Below are positions 42,875-58,088 of a DNA stretch of 64,000 nt, in pieces. Below the pieces are notes generated by a model, which was given only the letters and a program-made list of their open reading frames with translations, searched no databases and was not told the origin of the DNA. Position numbers and translations under genes: made by a program. Position 1 is the stretch's first letter. Each line of letters starts with the position of its first letter. This DNA comes from Streptomyces ferrugineus (GTDB lineage: Bacteria > Actinomycetota > Actinomycetes > Streptomycetales > Streptomycetaceae): contig NZ_CP063373.1 of NCBI RefSeq assembly GCF_015160855.1, forward strand, positions 310,001 to 374,000, read 5' to 3'.

Positions 42875-42961
42875 GGTGGGTTGCCCGAGCGGCCTAAGGG
42901 AACGGTCTTGAAAACCGTCGTGGCAGCGATGTCACCGTGGGTTCAAATCCCACACCCACCG
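42875..42961 (+). tRNA. tRNA-Ser (anticodon UGA)
   Basis: A complete class II tRNA: acceptor GGTGGGT with ACCCACC, anticodon loop CTTGAAA (anticodon TGA at 42909-42911, reading UCA codons), long variable arm and T loop TTCAAAT. CCA is not encoded. Its 3' 58 bases recur at 54340, so this gene is the attachment site of the following element and remains intact. Confidence 0.97.
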
Positions 42962-42962
42962 C
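42904..42962 (+). repeat. Left attachment site of the element (3' end of tRNA-Ser)
   Basis: A 59-base segment identical to 54340-54398, starting GGTCTTGAAAACC and ending CCCACACCCACCGC. The shared identity stops at both sides (C/A before, A/C after). Reconstitution of the tRNA end by the element is typical of tyrosine-integrase elements. Confidence 0.93.
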
Positions 42963-43058
42963 AGGTGAACGGCCCCTGACCAGGCGATATGGTCGGGGGC
43001 CGTTGCTTTGCCCGCTGCCCGTCCGACCCCGCCCTTGACCGTGGTTTCCCGGTCTATC

Positions 43059-43098
43059 GGGCACGGATGGGGCACGCGAGGGGCACGTCTGATGCACG
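43059..43098 (+). repeat. Left set of GGGCACG arm-type repeats, 11-bp period
   Basis: GGGCACG begins at 43059, 43070 and 43081 (exactly 11 bases apart), with ATGCACG at 43092. The period equals one helical turn, so the copies lie on one face of the DNA. The array lies 97 bases inside the left attachment site. A matching set lies at the right end. Confidence 0.75.
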
Positions 43099-43135
43099 GC
43101 TTCAGAAGATCCATGGGCGACCAACCGCCCGTCCG

Positions 43136-43891
43136 CTAACGGTTGATCGGGATCTCGTAGACGATCTCGCAGTGAGCGGCGGGTACGACGATGTCCGCCG
43201 TCTCAACCGGCCGACCCTGGTCGCTGTAGTACGTCCGCCGGATGTGCGTGACGAGTGCGGCCTTCTGAATGCCGAGTAGTGACGCCTCCTCGGCGGTCGC
43301 CTGCCTCGGCTCGGGCTGCTCCACGGCATGGCTTACCGTGACACCGATCGCGGCCATCCGGTTCACGACTCCGGCCCCGGCGTGCGGGCCTCCCTCGGGG
43401 AGGACCACCAGTGTGCCGGCGGTGAGGTCGTACGGCTCCCAACTCGTCGACAACTGGATCGGCCTGCCGTCCGCCAGGAACTCGTACGTTGTCCGGACGC
43501 ACAGCTCGCCTTCGGCGATCCCGAGCCGCGCCGCGATGTCAGCTGGCGCCGGCACCTTGGCGTCCGTCCGGCTCTCCCAGTCGCCCTGCCTTCCCACGGC
43601 CTTCATGTCCGCCCGAAACGGCGACCTGCTGGGCTGCTCCCGCGCCGACGACCGCACGACACGCACGCGATGCCGGGGCTCGGCAACGTACGTACCGGAC
43701 CCCGCACGGCCCTCCAACACACCCTGGGAGATCAGCAACTCCTGCGCCCGCCGGACCACGTTCTCGCCCACGCCGCACTCCTGGCCGATCTGGGCGCGGG
43801 ACGGCAGACGGTCCCCCGGCTCCCACACGTGCTCCGCGATGCGCTGCCGGAGTACGTCGGCGATGCGGAGATAGGGCGGCTGCTCAGGCAT
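43136..43891 (-). CDS. GntR-family regulator (HutC type, KorSA-like)
   Basis: A 251-residue regulator. The N-terminal winged helix (about 8-75: YLRIADVLRQRIAEHVWEPG, GENVVRRAQELL) is followed by a UTRA ligand-binding domain (about 90-245). Its position beside small genes of an integrated element resembles KorSA, which represses transfer and excision genes of pSAM2-like elements. It is divergent from the small-gene operon and faces a paired CTAG operator. The ATG lies six bases after a -10-like TAGATT, so its mRNA may be leaderless. Confidence 0.88.
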   Translation of the reverse strand: MPEQPPYLRIADVLRQRIAEHVWEPGDRLPSRAQIGQECGVGENVVRRAQELLISQGVLEGRAGSGTYVAEPRHRVRVVRSSAREQPSRSPFRADMKAVGRQGDWESRTDAKVPAPADIAARLGIAEGELCVRTTYEFLADGRPIQLSTSWEPYDLTAGTLVVLPEGGPHAGAGVVNRMAAIGVTVSHAVEQPEPRQATAEEASLLGIQKAALVTHIRRTYYSDQGRPVETADIVVPAAHCEIVYEIPINR

Positions 43892-43900
43892 ATGGAAAAT

Positions 43901-43931
43901 CTAGTCCACTAGCTCTAATCTAGTTAACTAG
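43901..43931. promoter_or_regulatory. Paired CTAGTnnACTAG operator and promoter of the GntR gene
   Basis: CTAGTCCACTAG (43901-43912) and CTAGTTAACTAG (43920-43931) are near-perfect palindromes with centres 19 bases apart. On the minus strand TTAACT, 18 bases and TAGATT form a promoter fully covered by the two. Autorepression by the adjacent GntR protein is likely. Confidence 0.7.
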
Positions 43932-43969
43932 CTTTACTCAAAGTGATCGCTGGTGACGGAGGCTGACCT

Positions 43970-44248
43970 GTGCCCGCTTCGGGAGTTAGCGCGGCGGCCA
44001 TCGCCGCCCGGCTGTCCGCCCTCGGGCTCCTCACGCGAGTGGAGGAACACCCCCGGCACACGTCGGTCGAGGCGGAGGTGCCGGAATCGGTCTCCGCCGA
44101 GACATGGCGGGAGGTCTTACAAGTGGTGGCCGAGGCCGATCAGTTCGGGCTCCTCGCCACCAGCCTGAACGGCCGCACCCTCTGGGCGGTCGTACGCAAA
44201 GCGGTCCCCACGACGGGCGATGTCGGGGGACCGAGCCATCAGCGATAG
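43970..44248 (+). CDS. Small hypothetical protein of the element
   Basis: A 92-residue protein starting at GTG with GGAGG seven bases ahead. The sequence AAAIAARLSALGLL and later WREVLQVVAEADQFGLL is helical. No family motif is recognised. It is the first gene of the six-gene operon transcribed from the CTAG operator region. Confidence 0.7.
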   Translation: MPASGVSAAAIAARLSALGLLTRVEEHPRHTSVEAEVPESVSAETWREVLQVVAEADQFGLLATSLNGRTLWAVVRKAVPTTGDVGGPSHQR

Positions 44249-44260
44249 GAGCTGAACAGC

Positions 44261-44572
44261 GTGCTCAACCGTATCCGCCGCGCCGTCTTCCTCACCAGGG
44301 CGCGCTACTTCCGCAAGGGCAGGCACCGCCGCCCCTTAACGCCCGCCCGGCTGTCGACCTCTTCCGCCTCCCCTACGTCTGCTGACGCGTCGACAGTCGT
44401 CGTGAAACGGGCCTCCATCGGCCCGGACCATCGACACTCGCTCAGAGGCGAGGACACCGCGCTCGTCCGCCCGTATGTGCTGGCCTGGGAGCGGCGTGTG
44501 CGGGCGCGCCCTGTGGTCATCGCTCCGCACCTGCCGGCCGACGCCTGGTCGACCCTCGCGGGGGTCAACTGA
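44261..44572 (+). CDS. Small basic hypothetical protein of the element
   Basis: A 103-residue protein, Arg-rich at the N-terminus (NRIRRAVFLTRARYFRKGRHRR). GTG start with AGGAG nine bases ahead. The C-terminus (RPYVLAWERRVRARP) resembles small proteins common in Streptomyces element operons. Function unknown. Confidence 0.65.
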   Translation: MLNRIRRAVFLTRARYFRKGRHRRPLTPARLSTSSASPTSADASTVVVKRASIGPDHRHSLRGEDTALVRPYVLAWERRVRARPVVIAPHLPADAWSTLAGVN

Positions 44573-44775
44573 TGCCTTCTCGACAACGGCCGCCCATCAC
44601 CGACGCCTCGGCTGTCCCCTACCGCTCGATCGCCTGCCGCATCGGCACGCACCCCGTCTGCGCGGAATCCTCCCCGGCATCGGCGCCGGGCGACCTCCCG
44701 GTGATCTACGAAGCGTGCGACTGCCCGTGTCACTCGGCATGCGACCAGTCCACGCAAGCGGAGGTGGCACGGTGA
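44572..44775 (+). CDS. Small Cys/His-rich protein of the element
   Basis: A 67-residue protein with four Cys and several His residues (CRIGTHPVCAE; CDCPCHSACD), arranged as a possible zinc site. Its start overlaps the preceding stop (A-TGA-TG type). Similar peptides are common in element operons; function unknown. Confidence 0.65.
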   Translation: MPSRQRPPITDASAVPYRSIACRIGTHPVCAESSPASAPGDLPVIYEACDCPCHSACDQSTQAEVAR

Positions 44776-44996
44776 ACGAAATGGCCCTCGGCGGCGCGCT
44801 GGCCTCCAGCATCGAGGTCACGGCAGCGACCGTGCAGCGCGGCGACATCATCCAACTCGGCGGCCAGGCTTGCCGGGTGGGCGATCTCTTCCAACTGCCC
44901 CAGGGAACCAAGCAACTGGTCTTCGAGTCGGGTGAGCTGCTGACCATACACACGCGTACCCGCCTGGTGGCCGTGCGGACGCTGAGAAGGCGGTGA
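44772..44996 (+). CDS. Small hypothetical protein of the element
   Basis: A 74-residue protein (MNEMALGGALASSIEVTAA...). GTG start overlaps the preceding stop by four bases (GTGA). A beta-rich middle (VQRGDIIQLGGQACRVGDLF) suggests an SH3-like small barrel. Function unknown. Confidence 0.62.
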   Translation: MNEMALGGALASSIEVTAATVQRGDIIQLGGQACRVGDLFQLPQGTKQLVFESGELLTIHTRTRLVAVRTLRRR

Positions 44997-45736
44997 CCGG
45001 AACCGTGCCGTCTCGCCACCAGGACATCGCCGATGACCTCCGGAGCCAGATCACGACCGGCCGGATCCAGCCTGGCGAACGTCTGCCGTCCGAAGCCGAC
45101 TTGGCCGACCGGTACAAGGTCAGCACGGTGACGCTGCGGAGAGCCCTCGCGGTGCTCCAGGGCGAAGGCCTCGTCGAAAAGATCCACGGCAAGGGGAACT
45201 TCGTGCGCCGTCCCCACCGCAAGATCATGTACGTCGGCGGATGGGGAACGCTGGACCCGTGGACCGCCGCCGAAGCTGCTCTGCGTGTCACCGTTCGCAG
45301 CACAACAGTGCAGGCTTACGGGCATCTCACGACCTTGTTGAATGTGCCGGTGGGCAGTCCCCTCGCCGAGTTCTCCTGCGCCAGCCACGCGGGAGAGTCA
45401 CCGCACGGGCTGGCCCGCATCTACATCCCTCGCGACCTGGCACCCGTCGGAGACCTCGACGACGCGTCCTCGTGCTGGGAGGCGGCCACGAGATTCGCCG
45501 TCCTCAGCCCGGCGCCGGCCGCTGTCCGGGAGACGGCATGTGCCCGCGCACCGACACCGGACGAAGCCTCCGCACTCCGGATCGGACACGCTGCGCCAGT
45601 CCTCGGGATCACGCGCGTCGCAACCGACGTCACCGGGCGAATCGTCGAAGCCGCCCTCCTGGTGTTCCCGGGGGACCGTGTCGACGCGGTTTTCGCCACC
45701 CACCACATGACCCAAGAGAGGCAGATCCAAGCATGA
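44993..45736 (+). CDS. GntR-family regulator with UTRA domain
   Basis: A 247-residue regulator. Winged helix at about 8-72 (SRHQDIADDLRSQITTGRI; STVTLRRALAVLQ), UTRA domain after about 85. It overlaps the small gene before it by four bases and is followed by another four-base overlap. It is a second GntR-type protein in one element, transcribed with the operon rather than against it. Confidence 0.86.
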   Translation: MTGTVPSRHQDIADDLRSQITTGRIQPGERLPSEADLADRYKVSTVTLRRALAVLQGEGLVEKIHGKGNFVRRPHRKIMYVGGWGTLDPWTAAEAALRVTVRSTTVQAYGHLTTLLNVPVGSPLAEFSCASHAGESPHGLARIYIPRDLAPVGDLDDASSCWEAATRFAVLSPAPAAVRETACARAPTPDEASALRIGHAAPVLGITRVATDVTGRIVEAALLVFPGDRVDAVFATHHMTQERQIQA

Positions 45737-46035
45737 CGGCTCGGAACGAACTGCGGCTTCTCCCGTGGGCGGGTCCGGAGGGCAAGCCCTGCTACTTGAG
45801 CACCGACGACCAGGACGGCTACATGTCCCGGCTGGCGGACAACATGGAAGCCGTCCAACTCGGCGCGGCGGCCGAACTGCTGGAGCGGGCCTCCCAAACC
45901 CTCGACGACCAGGACGCGGGTCCGGAGGACGTACTACTGCTGGCGAAGGAACTGACCGGGGCCTTGCGAGACGTACTCCGCGTCGCCACCAGCCGCGGTC
46001 ACCTTCTCACCGCGAACGAACCACACGGCATCTGA
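45733..46035 (+). CDS. Small hypothetical protein, last of the operon
   Basis: A 100-residue, largely helical acidic protein (MSRLADNMEAVQLGAAAELL; GPEDVLLLAKELTGALRDVL). ATG overlaps the GntR stop by four bases. No motif recognised. It resembles small DUF-type proteins that end such operons. Confidence 0.65.
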   Translation: MTARNELRLLPWAGPEGKPCYLSTDDQDGYMSRLADNMEAVQLGAAAELLERASQTLDDQDAGPEDVLLLAKELTGALRDVLRVATSRGHLLTANEPHGI

Positions 46036-46197
46036 AAAGGACCTGCCGGCCCTGGCTCCGTAGGTCTGTAGAGATCGGTCAGACGAAGCTGAAGACGATC
46101 GAGCCACTCCAGGCGACCGGCGCCAGTTGCGCTGCTGCCCATGCAGCAGCGCAACACACCGCGAGCTACGCCGCCCCAAGGTTTATGAGCTGACCTC

Positions 46198-46647
46198 TCA
46201 GTAGAGCAATATCACCAAAAGACATGCCGCGAGATTAATCAGGAAGCTGAGCGTGGCCGCCGGGGGAAGATTGAACCAGAACTTCGTCGCCCAATCGACC
46301 GGTTGCTTCACCCCAACGGCAATCAGCCCAAAACACAGAGCTAAGAATGCCGAAATGGAATAGAAGACTATAAGCCAACTAGGGGTCTTGGTTGAGACGA
46401 TTACTTCCAGAGCCAGCACAGGGACCAGAAATGCACCCACCGCTTGGCTTGCATCGGAAGCCCAGTTAGACAGTGCGACAAGCCGGGCTTTACTGTATTT
46501 CCAATCATCGGCCTTCTCTCCCACCCTCCTCTCGGCTACCTTCGAAAGAACGAATGTGAGCACACTTACGGCAGCAGAAGTAACGAAGGGCGCCACCACT
46601 TTGTAGGGGACTGCCAAATACTCGACGTCATAGGCGGTTGGCGGCAT
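46198..46647 (-). CDS. Hypothetical membrane protein of the L30-like cassette
   Basis: A 149-residue protein with four hydrophobic segments (VAPFVTSAAVSVLTFVLSKV; AVGAFLVPVLALEVIVS; LIVFYSISAFLALCFGLIAV; LSFLINLAACLLVILL). The start at 46647 (MPPTAYDVEYLAVPY) has GAGGGT ahead; a longer form from 46710 is possible. It is the third gene of a minus-strand group with two uncharacterised soluble proteins. A membrane effector, such as a pore, is an inference from context. Confidence 0.62.
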   Translation of the reverse strand: MPPTAYDVEYLAVPYKVVAPFVTSAAVSVLTFVLSKVAERRVGEKADDWKYSKARLVALSNWASDASQAVGAFLVPVLALEVIVSTKTPSWLIVFYSISAFLALCFGLIAVGVKQPVDWATKFWFNLPPAATLSFLINLAACLLVILLY

Positions 46648-46661
46648 CTCAGACCCTCGAC

Positions 46662-47018
46662 TCAAGGAACCGTAACCGACAGTGTTACTTCCTTTGACTC
46701 CAATCGGCAATAGGGAGCCTTTGTCGACACCTTCATGACGACGCGCTGCCTCTTATCTGTAGCCTTTCCGCCGCTATGCTCCAGTTCCACTTTTCCTATA
46801 GGCTCGCTCACTCGACGCCAGCCGCAAGGGCCAACCGTTACACGGCCAGTCTCCCAAAGGTGCTCATTTGGCGTGCCGGGATACCGAAGCGGAGGGCTAC
46901 ATGAGGATGTTATCTCCACAGTCACCTCCTGCTCCAGAGTATTGGTGATGTGTATCTCATGGAATGCCTGGACTCCGGATCCAAGATGGTGGCGCCGTAC
47001 ATTAATTCCGGCCTTCAT
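46662..47018 (-). CDS. Hypothetical beta-rich protein of the L30-like cassette
   Basis: A 118-residue protein starting at MKAGINVRRHHLG (47018). Alternating strands (FHEIHITNTLEQEVTVEIT; RVVMKVSTKAP; EVTLSVTVP) suggest an immunoglobulin-like beta sandwich. The gene overlaps the upstream gene's end. No family recognised. Confidence 0.6.
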   Translation of the reverse strand: MKAGINVRRHHLGSGVQAFHEIHITNTLEQEVTVEITSSCSPPLRYPGTPNEHLWETGRVTVGPCGWRRVSEPIGKVELEHSGGKATDKRQRVVMKVSTKAPYCRLESKEVTLSVTVP

Positions 47019-47874
47019 CCGCACGCCCTCTGCCACCCTTGCATTCCTCTTCTTGCAGGTCATCGAGGATCACCTCCATCTCCCGAATGCTTGGCAGGAG
47101 CTTTACTAGACTCCTGGCAACCCTCGGTGTTGCACTGGCCGGAATAATCCGAGAGAAGACATCAAAATCATCTCTTGGGCATCGCAGTCCGCCCTGCGAA
47201 TATCCGCTTTCTCCTGAATTTGGGGAGAGCCAGGTAAAGGAAAAATCCCAAGAAGGGGGTGTGTGATAGTCGACGCGAATGAATGACACCGAGGAGGGCG
47301 AGCGGCGGGCTTCGTTGAGTGCTTTGTCTGCGGATCCTGTGACTGCCGCTCGGCCATCGTGCCACCAAGTCTCCCCTGAAGATTCTTCGAAGCTTGTCGA
47401 CGCGGGAAGTAGATGCGTGAGTCTCTTGAGGGCCCGAGCGAGGGAGAACTCAATCGACCAGGTGAGCGCGACGTCTTCGCCCGCACTCAGAGCCCTCAGA
47501 TACTGACGATTCCCGAACTCAAATACCAAGGATTTCGAGTTGATTTCTTCCAGATCTTCCTCGGTGGCTGAAACGACCTCAATCACATCGCGGCCTGTCT
47601 CCGGCTTGATCTCTACCAGATGGGAGACTGACCTGATCATTCCCTGTATTGCGGGTTCAGTTAAATCAACGAACCGCAATTGACCGATACCGCGAAGTCC
47701 AAGGGCGGCAAGGATTCTCGCTTGCCGTTGTGTACCCGGGCGCTTGCGTTGTACCACTGCGGCTCTCTCGCCCACCGTCAGGCGAAGCGGCTTCCGCGTA
47801 GCATGCTTGCTTTTCTCATAGATCCGATTTGCTCCATAGTCGTTGTCTCGAGCTGCCTCACTACCTGAATCCAT
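47002..47874 (-). CDS. Hypothetical protein with an N-terminal ribosomal-L30-like domain
   Basis: A 290-residue protein. Residues about 28-92 read like ribosomal protein L30: LRLTVGERAAVVQRKRPG, then ALGLRGIGQ, then a PAIQGMIRSVSHLVEI segment that aligns with the L30 signature GLGLRRIG...PAIRGMINAVSFMV. The C-terminal 200 residues (Glu/Asp-rich start, Trp-containing SWDFSFTWLSP, and helical end) are unassigned. The ATG at 47874 has GGAGGT close ahead; the spacing is unusually short. It heads a three-gene low-GC cassette. Confidence 0.65.
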   Translation of the reverse strand: MDSGSEAARDNDYGANRIYEKSKHATRKPLRLTVGERAAVVQRKRPGTQRQARILAALGLRGIGQLRFVDLTEPAIQGMIRSVSHLVEIKPETGRDVIEVVSATEEDLEEINSKSLVFEFGNRQYLRALSAGEDVALTWSIEFSLARALKRLTHLLPASTSFEESSGETWWHDGRAAVTGSADKALNEARRSPSSVSFIRVDYHTPPSWDFSFTWLSPNSGESGYSQGGLRCPRDDFDVFSRIIPASATPRVARSLVKLLPSIREMEVILDDLQEEECKGGRGRADEGRN

Positions 47875-48094
47875 ACCTCCAGTTGACGGCAGTCCCACGT
47901 CGCCCGCCACTCAGCGGGTGGGCCCCTGCGCCAGCAATTCGGGCCCGGGCCTGTCGTGGGGCCCGCATCGCACGGTGCGGGTTCAGGGAAGTCTCCTCTC
48001 AGGAGTCCGATCGTTCGGATCGTCGTCCCCAACGACCAACGACCACCCGAACCAGCGATGGCGCGATAAATCGAACACATGATTGAATCTGGGT

Positions 48095-48313
48095 ATGCGA
48101 TCGTTCCCCGACGACCTCGTCCAGGCACAGCAGGAGTGGAGCGCCACCTACCACCGGCTGGCCGGCGGGCCGGGCCGAACCGAGCTGCGCCGCCGTCTGT
48201 ACCGGCTCTCGACCGAGGTGCTCTTCCACCCGTACTGGCGGGAAGGCGGCCGCACCCCGGCGGCATGGGCGGAGCTGCGGAAGCAGGGGCGGGGAGGAAG
48301 GAGCTGGAGGTGA
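48095..48313 (+). CDS. Small conserved Streptomyces protein
   Basis: A 72-residue protein starting MRSFPDDLVQAQQEWSATYHRLA, Arg-rich with a helical core. Similar small proteins are frequent in Streptomyces mobile regions (recognised from memory). It is followed by a second small gene on the same strand. Confidence 0.6.
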   Translation: MRSFPDDLVQAQQEWSATYHRLAGGPGRTELRRRLYRLSTEVLFHPYWREGGRTPAAWAELRKQGRGGRSWR

Positions 48314-48346
48314 CCGGCTTCATCCCGCACGAGGGCGTCGCGGGCC

Positions 48347-48778
48347 ATGGCCGAGCTACCGCCTGACGCGCGACGGCTGCGGGCGATCCTCGCGAACCTC
48401 GACGAACAGATCGCCAGCCACGAGACCGTCGGCATCTACCTGCGCCTCCAGCGCGAAGCCGTACGCGCGGCACTCACCCGCGCCGAGAACCGACACGCAC
48501 CCCGGCTGCCGAAGTCCCCACAGCCGCGACAGGCACCCGCGGCCCTCTCGCCGTTCGCGCCCTCCAGGGAAATGCGGCAATCAACGGGCTTCGTCGTCCA
48601 GCAAAAGCGCACGCCGAACGGTCCCGAGCCCGCCGTGATCCGCACGGGCGACTGCACGATGATCGAGGGCACACCCCATCGGATCGGCGACCATGACGCC
48701 CGCGCCGCCCTCACCGACCCCAACATCGAACCGTGCGCCTTCTGCCGCCCGGACAGCGAGCTGGGGATACTGGATTGA
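48347..48778 (+). CDS. DUF6233-like small protein
   Basis: A 143-residue protein. The N-terminal helix-rich region (RRLRAILANLDEQIASHETVGIYLRLQ) and the C-terminal CAFCRPDSELGILD with a Cys pair match what I recall of DUF6233. Function unknown; common in streptomycete mobile regions. Confidence 0.65.
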   Translation: MAELPPDARRLRAILANLDEQIASHETVGIYLRLQREAVRAALTRAENRHAPRLPKSPQPRQAPAALSPFAPSREMRQSTGFVVQQKRTPNGPEPAVIRTGDCTMIEGTPHRIGDHDARAALTDPNIEPCAFCRPDSELGILD

Positions 48779-48984
48779 GTCCGCACTGCGTAACTGGGCG
48801 GGCCATCAGCTTGGGAAGCTGCGATCATTCGCAGCCCATCCGTGCTCTGACCTGCGCGAACGGGTGAGGTGCGGCGTCGTCGGGTTCGGCTGACTTTACC
48901 GTGACTCCCCGCTGTTCCCCGCCCGATCTGGTGCGCTTGTGGTGCGGGACCGGTCAACATCGCGGTAATGGCTACGGTCGGTCC
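48779..48984. other. Short gap without a gene
   Basis: The 206 bases between two plus-strand genes hold no recognised motif. Confidence 0.4.
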
Positions 48985-49461
48985 ATGCAATGGATCACCT
49001 TGATCAGCACCATAGTTGGCGCGGCGATCGCTACAGGGTCCGCCATGCTTTTGGACCGTCAACGCTGGAGGCGAGAGCACCTTGATCGCGAAACGCAAGC
49101 GCGTCGCACGCTGTACGGGGAGTACCTGGCCGGCCTGTCCGAGGCCCGTCACGCCTGCGGCAACGTGGCTCGGGACCCGGACATGGCACCCTCGACGCGC
49201 CGGACTACGGCCCGCGAGGCGTTCGGGCCGTGCATCGGACTGAGGTACCAGATGACCATCAGCGCGCCCAGTCGTGTCGTAGAGGCATCGGAGGATGCCT
49301 TCCGCCGTCTGCGAGACCTCCGTGATCGCGTCATGGAGGGAGTCGCAGCCACTGAGCCCGTTTACCTGGAAGGCCGCCGAAGTTATGACGACGCCCTTGC
49401 TGCGCTGCGGGCACGCATGAGAGACGACCTGCGCATCAGCGAAGACGGCACCGCGCCCTGA
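48985..49461 (+). CDS. Hypothetical single-span membrane protein
   Basis: A 158-residue protein with an N-terminal membrane helix (WITLISTIVGAAIATGSAMLL) and a charged helical cytosolic domain (REHLDRETQARRTLYGEYLA). Start ATG at 48985 with weak GGTCGG ahead. It resembles small proteins widespread in Streptomyces. It converges on the ATPase gene. Confidence 0.6.
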   Translation: MQWITLISTIVGAAIATGSAMLLDRQRWRREHLDRETQARRTLYGEYLAGLSEARHACGNVARDPDMAPSTRRTTAREAFGPCIGLRYQMTISAPSRVVEASEDAFRRLRDLRDRVMEGVAATEPVYLEGRRSYDDALAALRARMRDDLRISEDGTAP

Positions 49462-49543
49462 GCCCGTCCGACGGCTGCCCCCTTGGGCATATACACAAGC
49501 CTGGTGCCGTTTGTTGGCGGCAGTTGGTCGTGGAGGCAAGGAC

Positions 49544-52162
49544 CTATGCCTGACCTCGCCGCGTCAGCCCCAGAGCGAGCCTGTATAGGTCGGGCACTCT
49601 GTACCGACGTACGTCGTCTTGCGTGCCTTCGTAGATCTCCAAGAGGCCCACTTCGAGAGCGAGGTCAACACGCTCGGCAGCGGTTGGGTCAACTGCTTCG
49701 ATTTCGCCCGGCTCGATCGGGGTCCTCCGCAAGCTCCTGAGAGCTTCCACAACGCCATCGAGCTCAGGGAACTCCTCTTGCAGAGCGCTAAGTGCTTCGA
49801 CGCTAACCTTGTCAAGGCTAGGTACGAGAGCCCGCGGCCTCATGATGCTGCGGTCGTAACTGCTCCGCGCTTCTTCCCGCTTTTCCCATTGGACGGCCTC
49901 ATGGAAAAGTTGGGAGAGTGAGCGTGGTCCGTGATCTCCTTGACCGTCGGCTAGACGATTCCACACCCAGTTACGTGTGAAGGTTGTCTTGCCTCCCTTC
50001 ATTCGCTCTCCGACGAGCACATTCCAGGCACGGCGCACCTCATCGTCCCGCCAATCGTCGACAGATGGGCCGACTCGCGTTTCCGCAAGCATCTCTCGGT
50101 AGATTTCACTGCGAATTGCTTGCTTGAGTACGGTCTTGAAATAGTCGTTCTGATCCCGCCACATAAGCTGAACAGAGCGCCCGTATAGATGACTCTTGTT
50201 TTCGAACCGAAGCTGTTGCCAGATGTCCACTCGGAGCATCACTTTAAAAGACAGCAAAGAGAGATGCGCTTCTGACTCTGTCAAGAAGGTCATCAAACCC
50301 GTTACAGCACGAGTCCTTCTCTTCCGGCTCTCGGCATTGTTCCCGAATCCAGTATCGAGGCCGTCAAAGAGGAGCATGTGTCGGTTCTTTGCACTGCTGT
50401 TGATGTCTCTCAGCCATCGAGATCCGAGAAGGCCAGCCATGGGGCGGCTCATCATATGCTTGATCACGTCGAGTGTGGACAGCTCGTCGTAGACGGCATC
50501 AAGAGATTCTTTATTGATTTCGAATCTAGCGGGCGGATCTGCACGCTCCTCTGGCGGCAGGGCGAAATATGCGGCCAATGCCGTGTAGCAAGGCCAGAAG
50601 GTTGTCCACGCGGACTCCCCTGGGAATTCCGATTCGACAATCTCCAGAGCCTCGGACCCGAGGGTCCACTTGTAGGAATTCCTGAAGGCGTGAGGGGAGA
50701 AAACGACAACTGGATTTTCGTTTTCGCGATACCTCTCCATGAGCCAGCGAAAAACAGCCGTCTTCCCTGTGCCTTTACGGCCAATTACTAGCGGCGATCG
50801 AGCATCAAGTGCTTGTTGCGCTACGCGAGTGTGCACGAAGTCATCAAGAAGACTCGCTTGCTGCTCTGCTGTGCCAGTAGAGAAGTCGAGTTGCTCCAGT
50901 ACATCATGCTTTCGATTTCTGCTTGAAGCTGAGAGGGCGTATGTCTGGGGCAGCAACTGCTCCAGCCAATCTGCCACGGCTCCGTAGGCTTCACGAGTTG
51001 CGACGCCATTACTTACCTTGTCTCGAAAGGCGGTATCTGGCGAGTAGCTTACGGCGTGAGTAATTTCGTCTGCTCGAAGGGGGTCGTATTCTCCAGGGCG
51101 GCGGCTTTGGGCGTCACCGATCCAGTGGTCGATCCATGTGACTGCGCGCGTGAGGACAGTCTCTGCAGACGGTCCGGGCGGCACTGGAGAAACGATGAAC
51201 CGGGGCTCGGGTGTCAGCGGAGTGTCGGATGTTGCCCTACGGCTCTTGGCAGACATTAGAGCTTTCACGAGAAGCTCAGTCCCCCGCTCTGCCTGGGGAT
51301 GGGGGTAAAAACAAATGATGGCTAGATCCGACACGTCGAACAAAAGGGGTGCGGCAACCGGCGAGATGCCAGTGCGAGAATCAAGAAGAATCAAATCCGG
51401 CTCAAGCGCTGATTCTTTGGCCAACTGCAAGAGTTGGTGAAGTGGATTGCCAGCCTCTCTGTACCAGATTTCAGGGTCCAGCAAACGAAGCCGATCGGCG
51501 TAGTCGCTACTGAGCCGTCCTGCCGGCAGGCAATAGAGTTCCTCACCCTCGTTGACTCGCAGTACGTGATCTCGAATGTCGACCTCATCACCTCGCTCTA
51601 GAGCCAGGAGAAGGGGAAGGACTCCTTGATCTTCCCTAGGTTCGGGGCAGCCCAAGACGGTAGCAAGCCCCGGTGCTTCGAGATCCATGTCAACGCAAAG
51701 CAATCGACGCCCACGCTCAGACAAAATGCGCGCAGCCGCTGCAAGCGCAGTTGTGCGTCCGACGCCACCTCGTAGAGAATAGAAAGTGACGATGGCTGGG
51801 AGTTCGATGTCTTGGTCGAGATCGGTGGCGAATGTGAGCTCATCGGCTGAGAGTGGACGGCTTAGGACTTCATGCCAAAGAGGCATTTGACCGGTAGATT
51901 CACTGAATGGTGGTCCGTACCATTCCTCTTCACCGGGAGTGATTAGCTCAGCAGTCGATACAATATTCGCCACTCCCTTGAGGAGCAACTTACGTCGTTC
52001 TGAATCATCTAGAGCATCCAGCGATTCGTGAACTACTCGAACCAGATAAGATCCAAATCCGTCTTCAGTGACGTAAATTTGAGCGTCAGTCAAACCGGCG
52101 GAATGGGCGTTCCCTTCGATCTGTTGCCGGACAGATCGATTAGTCGTGGCCTCGCCGGTCAT
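49544..52162 (-). CDS. Two-P-loop ATPase with KGGVGR-type motif, putative defence component
   Basis: An 872-residue protein. Residues 131-138 RGGVGRTT resemble the deviant Walker A of ParA/MinD-type ATPases, with CVDMDLEAPG (about 156-165) and LILLDSRTGIS (about 257-267) matching their other motifs. A second P loop lies at 461-468 (GRKGTGKT), with Walker B LLFDGLDTG near 597-605. KGGVGR-variant ATPases of this sort occur in islands and are suspected defence proteins. It overlaps the HEPN stop by four bases (ATGA) with AGGAGG ahead. Confidence 0.82.
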   Translation of the reverse strand: MTGEATTNRSVRQQIEGNAHSAGLTDAQIYVTEDGFGSYLVRVVHESLDALDDSERRKLLLKGVANIVSTAELITPGEEEWYGPPFSESTGQMPLWHEVLSRPLSADELTFATDLDQDIELPAIVTFYSLRGGVGRTTALAAAARILSERGRRLLCVDMDLEAPGLATVLGCPEPREDQGVLPLLLALERGDEVDIRDHVLRVNEGEELYCLPAGRLSSDYADRLRLLDPEIWYREAGNPLHQLLQLAKESALEPDLILLDSRTGISPVAAPLLFDVSDLAIICFYPHPQAERGTELLVKALMSAKSRRATSDTPLTPEPRFIVSPVPPGPSAETVLTRAVTWIDHWIGDAQSRRPGEYDPLRADEITHAVSYSPDTAFRDKVSNGVATREAYGAVADWLEQLLPQTYALSASSRNRKHDVLEQLDFSTGTAEQQASLLDDFVHTRVAQQALDARSPLVIGRKGTGKTAVFRWLMERYRENENPVVVFSPHAFRNSYKWTLGSEALEIVESEFPGESAWTTFWPCYTALAAYFALPPEERADPPARFEINKESLDAVYDELSTLDVIKHMMSRPMAGLLGSRWLRDINSSAKNRHMLLFDGLDTGFGNNAESRKRRTRAVTGLMTFLTESEAHLSLLSFKVMLRVDIWQQLRFENKSHLYGRSVQLMWRDQNDYFKTVLKQAIRSEIYREMLAETRVGPSVDDWRDDEVRRAWNVLVGERMKGGKTTFTRNWVWNRLADGQGDHGPRSLSQLFHEAVQWEKREEARSSYDRSIMRPRALVPSLDKVSVEALSALQEEFPELDGVVEALRSLRRTPIEPGEIEAVDPTAAERVDLALEVGLLEIYEGTQDDVRRYRVPDLYRLALGLTRRGQA

Positions 52163-52548
52163 CGCCTTCCTCCTCTGTTGTGCGGTCGAGCGTAACGAAT
52201 GCGAGAGGTTACGTATGATGCTAGTTCTTGTGCTCCACGGAGGAGTTCTTCTGCTGAGGATCCGTCAGGCAACTTGGCGCTATATCTTAGACTCGTAGTC
52301 CATGTATCCATGAAGGCCTTCTTGTGGCCGCTTAGATCCTGGCTTCTGAGTCCGGCCGCATCCCAGAGCCCCCGAAGGTCATGTCCAGCCGAGCCTGATC
52401 GAGGGAAGGATTTCCCCTTTTTATTCAGGAGAGTCTTAAGTTTGCATTCGACGACGTATCCAACCAGGTAGACAGCGCCGCACAACTGGTTGTGCTCTTG
52501 TAGCAGCTTGGCTTCCCGTTGGCGTGCTCGCGCTGCATCCTCTAGCAA
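52159..52548 (-). CDS. HEPN-domain protein, putative defence RNase
   Basis: A 129-residue all-helical protein. LLQEHNQLCGAVYLVGYVVE matches the first helices of HEPN proteins, and RYARPH (Arg118 to His123) gives the Rx4-6H motif of HEPN ribonucleases. The start is TTG at 52548, the first in-frame candidate after a stop, with AGGGGGG nine bases ahead. Its stop overlaps the ATPase start, so the two are translated together. A toxic RNase controlled by the ATPase is the likely arrangement. Confidence 0.75.
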   Translation of the reverse strand: MLEDAARARQREAKLLQEHNQLCGAVYLVGYVVECKLKTLLNKKGKSFPRSGSAGHDLRGLWDAAGLRSQDLSGHKKAFMDTWTTSLRYSAKLPDGSSAEELLRGAQELASYVTSRIRYARPHNRGGRR

Positions 52549-52684
52549 GATACCGTCCCCCCTGCCATGATCCTTGGCAGTCTAGCGGCGATCGCTGATT
52601 CGGTTGCGTCCATGGAGATGGTGTACGGGTTCGACCTGATCCGGGGGTTTGCTCCGGCGTCGGGATGATGCCCGCATAGATGAA

Positions 52685-54001
52685 CGGCCACCGGCTGATC
52701 TTCGAGGTGTCGAAGCCCGAAGGAGATCAGCACGATGACCGCACCTGACAGTCTGCCCCTGCACGCCCTTGCCGAGGACAACCTCGCCGCGGCGAGTCCC
52801 GATCTGCTGCGCGCGATGATCAAGACATTCGCCGACGCGCTCATGTCCGCGGAGGCAGACGCGCTCTGCAATGCCGAATACGGGCAGGTCAGCGACGAGA
52901 GAGTCAATCACCGCAACGGATATCGCTCGCGTGAGTGGGACACGAGGGCCGGCACCGTGGAACTCGCCATCCCCAAGCTCAGGAGCGGGAGTTACTTCCC
53001 GCACTGGCTTCTCGAACGACGTCGCCGGGCCGAACAGGCCCTCATCTCGGTGGTCGCCACCGCCTACCTGCTGGGGGTGTCCACCCGCCGTGTCGAGAAG
53101 CTCGCCGAGTCGCTCGGCGTCACCCAGCTGTCCAAGTCGCAGGTCTCAGCGATGGCCCGGCACCTCGACGAGCAGGTCGCCGCCTTCCGCAACCGGCCCC
53201 TGGACCAGGGCCCTTACGCGTTCGTCTGGGTCGATGCGCTGACCCAGAAGGTCCGCGAGGGCGGCCGGATCATCAGCGTCCACGCCCTGATCGCTGTCGG
53301 CGTCAACGCGGACGGTCACCGCGAGATCCTCGGCATCGATGTCGCCACCGCCGAGGACGGCGCCGGCTGGCTGGCCTTCCTGCGCTCGCTGATCGCTCGC
53401 GGCCTGTCCGGCGTCCAGCTGGTCATCTCCGACGCCCACGCCGGCCTGGTCGACGCCATCGGCGCGGTCCTGCCCGGCTCATCGTGGCAGCGATGCCGCA
53501 CGCATTACGCCCGCAACCTGCTCAGCCAGGTCCCGAAATCGGCCCAGCCCTGGGTGGCCACGCTGCTGCGGACCGTCTTCGAACAACCCGACACCGACGC
53601 CGTGAAGGCCCAGATGCAGCACGTCCTGGATGCGCTGGAGGCCAAGTTCCCCAAGGCCGCAGCCCACTTGGACACCGCCCAGCACGACCTGCTGGCCTTC
53701 ACCGCGTTCCCGCGGGAGATCTGGCGGCAGATCTGGTCGAACAACCCGCAGGAACGGCTGAACAAGGAGATCCGCCGCCGCACCGACGTGGTCGGCATCT
53801 TCCCTGACCGCAGCGCCGTCATCCGCCTGGTCGGCGCCGTGCTGGCCGAGCAGAACGACGAGTGGACCGAAGCCCGCCGCTACATGGGACTTGACCTGCT
53901 GGCCAAGGCCCGCCTCCACCCGATCGAGTCAGAAACCGACGAGACCGTCCTCCCGACCGAACTCACCGCATAGCTTCAAAACGAGATCACCGAGTGGCCG
54001 T
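52685..54001. mobile_element. IS256-family insertion sequence (inner terminal repeats)
   Basis: The transposase gene lies between imperfect inverted repeats: ACGGCCACCGGCTGATCT (52685-52702) and the complement of AGATCACCGAGTGGCCGT (53984-54001), matching at 14 of 18. The true ends probably extend a few bases outwards. No target duplication could be identified. It lies in the space between the HEPN gene and the right end of the element. Confidence 0.7.
52735..53973 (+). CDS. IS256-family transposase (mutator type)
   Basis: A 412-residue DDE transposase that appears intact: NHRNGYRSREWDTRAG N-terminal region, WVDALTQKV (first Asp), VISDAHAGLVDAIG (second Asp) and NPQERLNKEIRRR (Glu). The start MTAPDSLPLHALAED follows AAGGAG. 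Codon use is host-like. Confidence 0.93.
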   Translation: MTAPDSLPLHALAEDNLAAASPDLLRAMIKTFADALMSAEADALCNAEYGQVSDERVNHRNGYRSREWDTRAGTVELAIPKLRSGSYFPHWLLERRRRAEQALISVVATAYLLGVSTRRVEKLAESLGVTQLSKSQVSAMARHLDEQVAAFRNRPLDQGPYAFVWVDALTQKVREGGRIISVHALIAVGVNADGHREILGIDVATAEDGAGWLAFLRSLIARGLSGVQLVISDAHAGLVDAIGAVLPGSSWQRCRTHYARNLLSQVPKSAQPWVATLLRTVFEQPDTDAVKAQMQHVLDALEAKFPKAAAHLDTAQHDLLAFTAFPREIWRQIWSNNPQERLNKEIRRRTDVVGIFPDRSAVIRLVGAVLAEQNDEWTEARRYMGLDLLAKARLHPIESETDETVLPTELTA

Positions 54002-54075
54002 CGATACACCACTCCAGCGGACGTGACCTGTTGATGGGGTGTTCGAAACGTCAGCACAGGTGGCAGAAGCTCAAG

Positions 54076-54219
54076 ATGATCGTTCTGCGCACCAAGGTCG
54101 GGAACGTGAGTCGCTCCGTGTTTCCGACAGCCAAAGAGAAGTTCAATGGTGCTCTCGCCGTAGGAGGGCTGCTGTCGGCTGTCGCCGCAGTGATCGTTCC
54201 CGCTGTGACTGGCGGCTGA
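54076..54219 (+). CDS. Possible small membrane peptide near the right end
   Basis: A 47-residue frame MIVLRTKVGNVSRSVFP ending in a hydrophobic helix (GALAVGGLLSAVAAVIVPAV). No Shine-Dalgarno sequence, no homologue known. It ends directly before the right arm-type repeats. Confidence 0.3.
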   Translation: MIVLRTKVGNVSRSVFPTAKEKFNGALAVGGLLSAVAAVIVPAVTGG

Positions 54220-54221
54220 GC

Positions 54222-54258
54222 GGGCACGATCGCGCGTCTGGGGCACGTAGAGGGCACG
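54222..54258 (+). repeat. Right set of GGGCACG arm-type repeats
   Basis: GGGCACG begins at 54222, 54241 and 54252. The last two are 11 bases apart as in the left set. The array is 82 bases inside the right attachment site, and in the same orientation as the left set. Confidence 0.7.
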
Positions 54259-54339
54259 ACAAGCACGGCTGCGACTGCGGCGGCCTGCTTTCGCCGCTCT
54301 GACCTGCGTGGGAGCGGAGATCTCGCCCGACTCCCGAAA

Positions 54340-54398
54340 GGTCTTGAAAACCGTCGTGGCAGCGATGTCACCGTGGGTTCAAATCCCACACCCACCGC
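54340..54398 (+). repeat. Right attachment site (tRNA-Ser 3' end remnant)
   Basis: The 59-base copy identical to 42904-42962, lacking the 5' half of the tRNA. It is not a functional tRNA gene. It marks the right border of the 11.4-kb element. Confidence 0.93.
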
Positions 54399-57221: not shown

Positions 57222-58088
57222 TCAGGGCCGGTGCCCCGTCATCCGCGCCGCCGACGCGATCGTCGCGCGGGCCTCGCGTTCGGTCAGGCCGGTGTTGAGG
57301 GCCGCCTCGACGAGGGGGTCGACGAGGGCGGGGCCGATGCCGTCCTCGTAGGCCCGGCAGGCCGCCCAGAACAGGCGGGTGTTGCGCTGGCCCTCGTGGG
57401 CGGCGAGCACGAACTGGACGAGTCCCTGGCCGTGGCCGCCGGTCGACGGGGGCGCGGGGTGGTGGGCACGGGGTGGGGGGAGCAGGAGGCGCAGGAGGGC
57501 GCGCGGGCAGGGCGCGGGGCCGATGTGGGCCGTGCCGGGGGCGGTGCTGTAGACGCCGTGGTCGGTGCGGGAGCCGGGGCCTACGAGATAGCCGCCGGCG
57601 CCGCGGATGTCGATGCCGGGCGCGAGTCGGCCCGCCGAGTTGGGGACGACGATGTCGGCCGGGCCGGTCAGCCACACGTGGCGGCCGCCGCTCGGGGTCA
57701 GTACGACGACCGTGGGCGGAATCGTGAACAGGTGGCGCAGCGCCAGTTCGCGCAGGGCGGCGGAGGAGTCCGTATCGGATTTGGTGTCGAGGTCGATGCC
57801 GATCAGGTGGTGCGGGGGCAGTCCGCACGCGATGCCGTAGCCGGTCGCCCAGGGGGCGGCCGCGAAGAGTTCGCGGATGCGGGCGGGGTCGGAGGAGGCG
57901 TCGTAGACGCCGTGCCCGGAGCGGCCGCACTCGCCGTGGCAGGGCGCGGGGTCGGGGTCGTCGCGGTGCGGGGAGCGCAGGGCCGGGAGCTTCGTCCGGG
58001 ACAGGGGGATGACGGCCAGTCCGCGTTCGGCGGCTGACAGGGCGTGTGCGAGGGCCAGCGTCGTGGCCTGCCGGTCGGTGGTGGCCAT
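57222..58088 (-). CDS. Bifunctional DNA primase/polymerase (AEP) domain protein
   Basis: A 288-residue prim-pol protein. It has a CHGECGRSGHG-like zinc-binding stretch, the catalytic acid pair in HLIGIDLDTKS (about 90-105), and SGGRHVWLTGP. The active site appears intact, unlike the homologue at 34734. Such proteins occur in Streptomyces chromosomes and elements. Role in replication or repair is not known. Confidence 0.85.
   Translation of the reverse strand: MATTDRQATTLALAHALSAAERGLAVIPLSRTKLPALRSPHRDDPDPAPCHGECGRSGHGVYDASSDPARIRELFAAAPWATGYGIACGLPPHHLIGIDLDTKSDTDSSAALRELALRHLFTIPPTVVVLTPSGGRHVWLTGPADIVVPNSAGRLAPGIDIRGAGGYLVGPGSRTDHGVYSTAPGTAHIGPAPCPRALLRLLLPPPRAHHPAPPSTGGHGQGLVQFVLAAHEGQRNTRLFWAACRAYEDGIGPALVDPLVEAALNTGLTEREARATIASAARMTGHRP

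Follow-up and report, generated by a model that had tools for sequence, protein, structure and literature searches.

The window, a 64,000-nucleotide stretch (positions 310001-374000) of the 9.96-Mb single-contig genome of Streptomyces ferrugineus, encodes a pair of coupled genes for a 129-residue HEPN protein and an 872-residue ATPase, which is, as judged from its profile matches, a fused variant of PDC-M28, a known but unvalidated candidate defence system. The reading favoured here, by a modest measure, is that the ATPase of the pair gates a HEPN RNase, with abortive infection as the outcome, and that the pair travels as a fused relative of this candidate on a tRNA-Ser island without an integrase.

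Relationship to PDC-M28 and Pgl loci

A search of PADLOC-DB, which had been suggested as a check on the pair, returned the PDC-M28 profiles (M28A, 7.5e-7; M28B, 3e-27; M28C, 3.6e-17). The M28B and M28C matches both fall on one fused protein, each covering part of its profile, and since PDC-M28 comprises three separate genes, the pair is a variant and not a standard member; this lowers the likelihood that it is PDC-M28, not that it works like PDC-M28. The two share the HEPN protein, the KGGVGR ATPase and the Sll1717-type ATPase parts, in identical order on a single strand, together with the HEPN residues E34/K38/H56/R88/Y89. The window form differs in that B and C are one 872-residue protein, 24-40% identical to split B and C over parts, with a BolA-like N-terminus (absent from the two split M28B proteins tested), and in lying outside any Pgl or Hma locus.

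PDC-M28C was detected at 1e-20 in 24/295 congeneric genomes (the window's genome is not one of these) and at 1e-8 in 4/396 genomes of the phylum, the window's included. Of the 24, 20 were fetched for inspection of their loci, one more (G012, L017) was also inspected and three were left out. The M28 genes lie between pglW and pglX in 13 of the 20 and in L017, whereas two have PglX alone and five have neither; M28A was detected in 17/20. Pgl (type-2 BREX) houses the split form at these loci; the window genome's own pglW and pglX lie elsewhere, adjacent and with no gene between them, apart from the window pair. In the passages of PMC12839542 on BREX diversity, HEPN RNases are named among the backup effectors of BREX-type loci, and the HEPN/KGGVGR/Sll1717 trio is not described there. 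On a Calothrix plasmid the trio is unfused, with individual M28A, M28B and M28C genes next to HmaC (5.3e-118); a gene bearing a type III restriction subunit annotation is nearby.

The M28 genes are co-directional with pglW and pglX in 6/13 loci and opposite in 7/13, as in L017. The trio of L083-L095 and L017 sits in the same place in either orientation, which would fit repeated insertion or exchange.

The HEPN protein

The HEPN fold (HEPN superfamily, HEPN-T, PF05168) assigned to the 129-residue protein in the sequence-only reading is confirmed. The predicted fold resembles solved HEPN proteins in structure comparison, and the PF05168 cut-off of 22 bits is passed by five of ten scanned relatives, although the window protein itself reaches 20.5 bits. 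Sequence searches of the PDB with the HEPN protein gave nothing, or unrelated chains.

The catalytic Rx4H motif previously proposed at Arg118-His123 did not survive comparison with homologues. The letters RYARPH are present, with H123 found in the window's sequence alone among 31 and among 120 homologues and falling within the low-confidence tail of the HEPN model; it was rejected as the active site, and its distribution marks the motif as a chance occurrence. The conserved set is E34, K38, H56 and R88 (Table 1), which is also kept in 18/18 split-form HEPNs. The model places H56 between helices 22-43 and 58-64, and E34 within helix 2. These positions show the features of AF0298-type HEPN-T proteins, namely a histidine in the insert between helices 2 and 3, an acid in helix 2 and a conserved basic residue, of which R88 would be the putative equivalent. 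An E/K/H/R-type layout with an alternative histidine has been proposed as an alternative active site in AF0298/AbiV-type HEPNs (PMC3710099), where the RNase activity of AF0298-type sites stands as a proposal. AbiV shares the HEPN fold, its alternative histidine is noted in passages of the same paper, and its PDB title names it an RNase of an antiphage system.

The ATPase

Both the GGVGRTT loop and the second GKT loop noted earlier in the 872-residue protein are present, while the replacement of lysine by arginine in the first loop and a BolA-like domain had been missed. The protein matches the NCBIfam models AAA_KGGVGR (157.3 bits, cut-off 90) and ATPase_Sll1717 (104.9 bits, cut-off 75), and its middle and C-terminal parts fit a MinD-like and then a STAND/CDC6-like domain in both sequence profiles and the structure model. 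The first structure matches of the model (mean predicted local distance difference test score 80.9) are BcsQ, MinD and ParA; later matches, with poor superposition, are CED-4 (E 3.4e-4, root-mean-square deviation 12.8) and Cdc6p (E 4.1e-4, 13.9). The predicted template modelling score is 0.55, so the orientation of the domains is not to be trusted. A Pfam ORC-CDC6-like match in the Nostoc ATPase lies barely above its cut-off (27.3 vs 27).

Residues were counted in 120 listed ATPases of 1024 homologues found. Arginine replaces the Walker-A lysine in 116/116 that span the first P-loop (115 matched the pattern, P0100 reads RGGIGRS, and the remaining four of the 120 are N-terminally shorter), and the second P-loop is GRKGxGKT in 120/120.

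A profile of 11 ATPase N-termini matched 12 PDB chains at E<=1 (best 4.5e-5), nine of which are named BolA or BolA-like, the others being 4pui (SufE-like), 1xs3 (hypothetical) and 1v60 (RIKEN cDNA). The predicted order of elements, helix-strand-strand-helix-helix-strand-helix, agrees with what we take to be the BolA fold, and the JGI names of four homologues include 'stress-induced morphogen', presumably a BolA name. With the Pfam BolA model, one protein of the ten scanned gave a match, at E 0.028 and below the cut-off, and the window protein has none listed at E 1; the evidence for the assignment is therefore the profile search together with the predicted secondary structure. The domain is present in the 116/120 listed ATPases that reach that far and in the Nostoc protein, some of these matching by construction because the profile was built from them. 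By the same profile it is absent from the two split M28B proteins, from three KGGVGR ATPases with an MqsA-annotated partner and from a 1380-residue KGGVGR protein. The position after the conserved arginine, a histidine that we assume to be the metal ligand of BolA, is Arg/Lys in 104/116 ATPases and His in 3/116, so that most copies of the domain lack this histidine of the BolA family.

Coupling, selection and distribution of the pair

The open reading frames lie on the same strand with the HEPN gene upstream and overlap by 4 bp (ATGA), their coordinates being as first read from the sequence, and both frames are unbroken, as had been supposed. The TTG start of the HEPN gene is supported because 12/21 homologues use the same column (seven are annotated longer and two shorter) and because the DNA match to Streptomyces DH37 (L004) stops ~50 bp upstream of this start; truncation of the gene by the adjoining transposase gene was rejected, the start column being common to those 12. 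Pairwise ratios of nonsynonymous to synonymous substitution rates between the window and L004, one pair of loci, are 0.084 for the HEPN gene and 0.056 for the ATPase gene, and in this comparison the pair is under strong purifying selection. Similarity to Streptacidiphilus DNA (L005) covers 49544-52586 at 67%, plus a single stray 36-bp match, and because similarity to L004 and L005 is restricted to the region of the pair, the module is a discrete cassette at differing sites.

Fused ATPases were inspected at 14 loci (the window, L004, L005, L006 and L036-L045), two of which could not be judged, L041 beginning at a contig end and L045 being a fragment. HEPN sequence lies directly upstream of the ATPase in 11 of the 12 evaluable loci, with its frame open in the window, L004, L006, L036, L038, L042, L043, L044 and L039 (the last reaching a contig end). 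Ten junctions comprise ATGA in seven and GTGA in one, with neither in L043 and L039. Contig sizes give no more than a hint: of the first 52 ATPases listed, 17, including that of the window, share a longest contig of identical size with one of 58 HEPN entries, P0113 having been added to this comparison after its match was noticed. The pairing occurs in two phyla: a Nostoc plasmid carries a fused ATPase with a HEPN gene (PDC-M28A, 2.4e-10), near hsdR.

The fused form is rare and patchy, occurring in 3/343 genomes of the genus and 9/394 of the class (the window's own in each). These counts come from a profile search, used in place of single-sequence searches, which found the window's own copy alone among 120 relatives and among 396 genomes of the phylum. 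A search of a phage collection gave no match at the set limits; partial matches of 22-28% identity occur in six viral contigs.

Other KGGVGR proteins have different surroundings. The ATPases of L021, L022 and L023, carried by plasmids of Rhizobium (two) and Massilia (one), are preceded by a gene annotated as MqsA-family and not by HEPN, and L020 (6619-10761), from the window's genome, encodes the 1380-residue protein, in which a KGGTGR loop is joined by a second P-loop.

The tRNA-Ser island

The pair lies, as the sequence-only reading held, within a mobile element. A 63-nt direct repeat of the 3' end of a tRNA-Ser gene (98%) bounds an 11.4-kb island at 42900-54398, and in 5/5 relatives inspected (from a search of 41 genomes that matched 17 besides the window's) both flanks join at one intact tRNA-Ser, leaving an empty site. 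Besides the pair, the island carries two GntR-type regulators, a Mutator-family transposase and genes of unknown function. None of the genome's 18 integrase matches falls within the island, and a scan at 16/20 matches gave no terminal inverted repeats for the transposase element.

Three overlapping minus-strand genes at 46198-47910 include one that is L30-like (PF00327, 7.3e-9), with no other family match. Just beyond the island, at 57222-58088, lies a Prim-Pol gene (PF09250, 2.1e-36), possibly a remnant of another element.

Table 1. Features of the HEPN-ATPase pair and its island, in window coordinates
Feature	Position	Strand	Basis or remark
HEPN protein, 129 residues, PDC-M28A-like, PF05168/AF0298-type	52159..52548	minus	TTG start
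E34 codon, conserved acid, helix 2	52447..52449	minus	120/120 homologues
K38 codon (E-x3-K)	52435..52437	minus	120/120 homologues
H56 codon, conserved His, loop between helices 2 and 3	52381..52383	minus	120/120 homologues
R88-Y89 codons	52282..52287	minus	118/120 homologues (one gap, one mismatch)
R118..H123, earlier Rx4H proposal, not conserved	52180..52197	minus	RYARPH
ATPase, 872 residues, fused M28B+M28C equivalent	49544..52162	minus	ATG start
BolA-like N-terminal domain, residues ~1-85	51908..52162	minus	profile search and secondary structure
KGGVGR-variant MinD/BcsQ/ParA-like domain, residues 122-302	51257..51799	minus	NCBIfam and structure match
RGGVGRTT, first P-loop, with Arg136 in place of the Walker-A Lys	51749..51772	minus	sequence
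Sll1717/STAND/ORC-CDC6-like ATPase domain, residues ~427-816 (limits approximate)	49715..50884	minus	profile and structure match
Second P-loop GRKGTGKT, intact	50759..50782	minus	sequence
Stretch similar to L004 DNA (85.5%), ~3.07-kb discrete cassette	49531..52599		
attL, 3' part of tRNA-Ser(tga) gene 42875-42962	42900..42962	plus	direct repeat
attR, repeat of tRNA-Ser 3' end (98%)	54336..54398	plus	direct repeat
Mutator-family transposase, upstream of HEPN gene	52735..53973	plus	Pfam match
GntR/UTRA regulator	43136-43891	minus	island
GntR/UTRA regulator	44993-45736	plus	island

Proposed mechanism and alternatives

In the mechanism that we infer, the HEPN protein would most likely be an RNase effector with an AF0298/AbiV-type site (E34, K38, H56, R88), as its conserved residues suggest, and the coupled ATPase would most likely bind it and hold it inactive. 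A cue of infection would reach the BolA-like or the STAND/CDC6-like part of the ATPase, a nucleotide-driven rearrangement through the intact second P-loop would release or assemble the HEPN protein, and the freed HEPN would cut RNA and growth would stop (abortive infection). A more elaborate proposal, less likely than not, is that the ATPase is an immune receptor of three switch folds licensing a HEPN RNase with a non-canonical site. It would combine a BolA-derived sensor without the metal-ligand histidine, a MinD-like domain that binds ATP but does not hydrolyse it (Walker lysine to arginine) and a CED-4/CDC6-like STAND motor, and by joining M28B to M28C and acquiring the BolA-like domain the module may have become free of Pgl loci and able to travel on its own islands and plasmids.

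Several observations weigh against the gated-RNase mechanism. The canonical HEPN Rx4-6H site is, by the alignment, not conserved in this family (any such motif within the last 45 residues occurs in 14/120 homologues), and Foldseek with the HEPN model gave no match at E 0.001. The HEPN gene is moreover broken in L005 and L040 and was not found in L037, with the ATPase frame open in all three. If the HEPN protein were a non-catalytic RNA-binding or adaptor subunit, with the ATPase doing the work, for example on nucleic acid, then the missing Rx4-6H, the status of AF0298-type RNase activity as a proposal and the open ATPases at these 3/12 evaluable loci would be expected; this is quite improbable, however, as the invariance of E34, K38 and H56, with R88 in all but two of 120 homologues and the whole set in every split form, exceeds what a scaffold should need, and AbiV, which shares the alternative histidine, is titled an antiphage RNase.

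The same loci bear on the main rival, a toxin-antitoxin pair stabilising the island, with an HEPN RNase as toxin and a ParA-like ATPase as antitoxin and no dedicated phage sensing. Passages of PMC3710099 (Anantharaman et al. 2013) propose this role for a less common dyad of HEPN (MAE_18760) and ParA/Soj, in which the HEPN gene likewise adjoins a ParA/MinD-type ATPase, and the cassette-like mobility, the ATGA coupling and an island without an integrase would all suit it. The MAE_18760 family is listed there with Rx4-6H, whereas the window HEPN lacks it, and the window ATPase has two further domains. MntA-HepT (HEPN-MNT) is set apart both by the absence of a conserved Rx4-6H and by the partner, which in the window matches ATPase families only and not nucleotidyltransferases. 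The toxin-antitoxin explanation is unlikely, in that an 872-residue partner of three domains would make a large antitoxin, Pgl loci harbour the split form, and an open ATPase beside a broken or absent HEPN gives no sign of toxin-driven retention.

The surroundings of the fused form also count against a defence role. None of 62 neighbour open reading frames at eight fused loci matched PADLOC at 1e-12 (crude calls; 62 of 135 called frames, from 8 of the 12 loci), and a defence island around the fused form was rejected. Flanking genes are common to L038, L039, L040 and L043, four genomes of one genus, probably Frankia-type, as far as the contigs reach. One flank is taken to carry thrS and the opposite flank glutamine-synthetase and glnE genes, labels that come from Pfam families of the whole set and mutual similarity and not member by member; L043 lacks an adjacent glutamine synthetase. 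The same housekeeping neighbours in four genomes look like fixed inheritance of the module, which, with the BolA-like domain and the lack of PADLOC matches nearby, would suit a stress or regulatory module of the chromosome with no link to phage. Such a module is very improbable in view of the patchy spread, the discrete cassette at differing sites, carriage on an island and a plasmid, and the split form in Pgl loci. Separately, glnA/glnE as a functional partner was rejected, the association being confined to one genus.

The defence role first suggested thus stands as a candidate role, favoured by the PDC-M28 matches and by split relatives found within Pgl loci and next to an Hma gene, and not by the neighbours of the fused form. 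PDCs are called unvalidated in passages of PMC12988326 and unpublished candidates in passages of PMC11811056. The former describe a guilt-by-embedding approach in which some Hma-embedded candidates showed antiviral activity. The PADLOC PDC-M28 profiles likely derive from embedded instances found by such a screen, so the Pgl association is partly circular as proof of defence, although the positions of the split form in Pgl loci remain facts of these genomes. The papers searched gave no report that defence had been demonstrated for a family member and no mechanism for PDC-M28.

Implications

Many candidate systems, PDC-M28 among them, are unpublished. For its parts, predictions open to experiment can now be made about the HEPN residues expected to be catalytic and the P-loop expected to function, and a BolA-like domain is assigned to an ATPase of immune type. 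The recurrence of the split form between pglW and pglX is relevant to the way in which the phage growth limitation system of Streptomyces acquires extra effectors.
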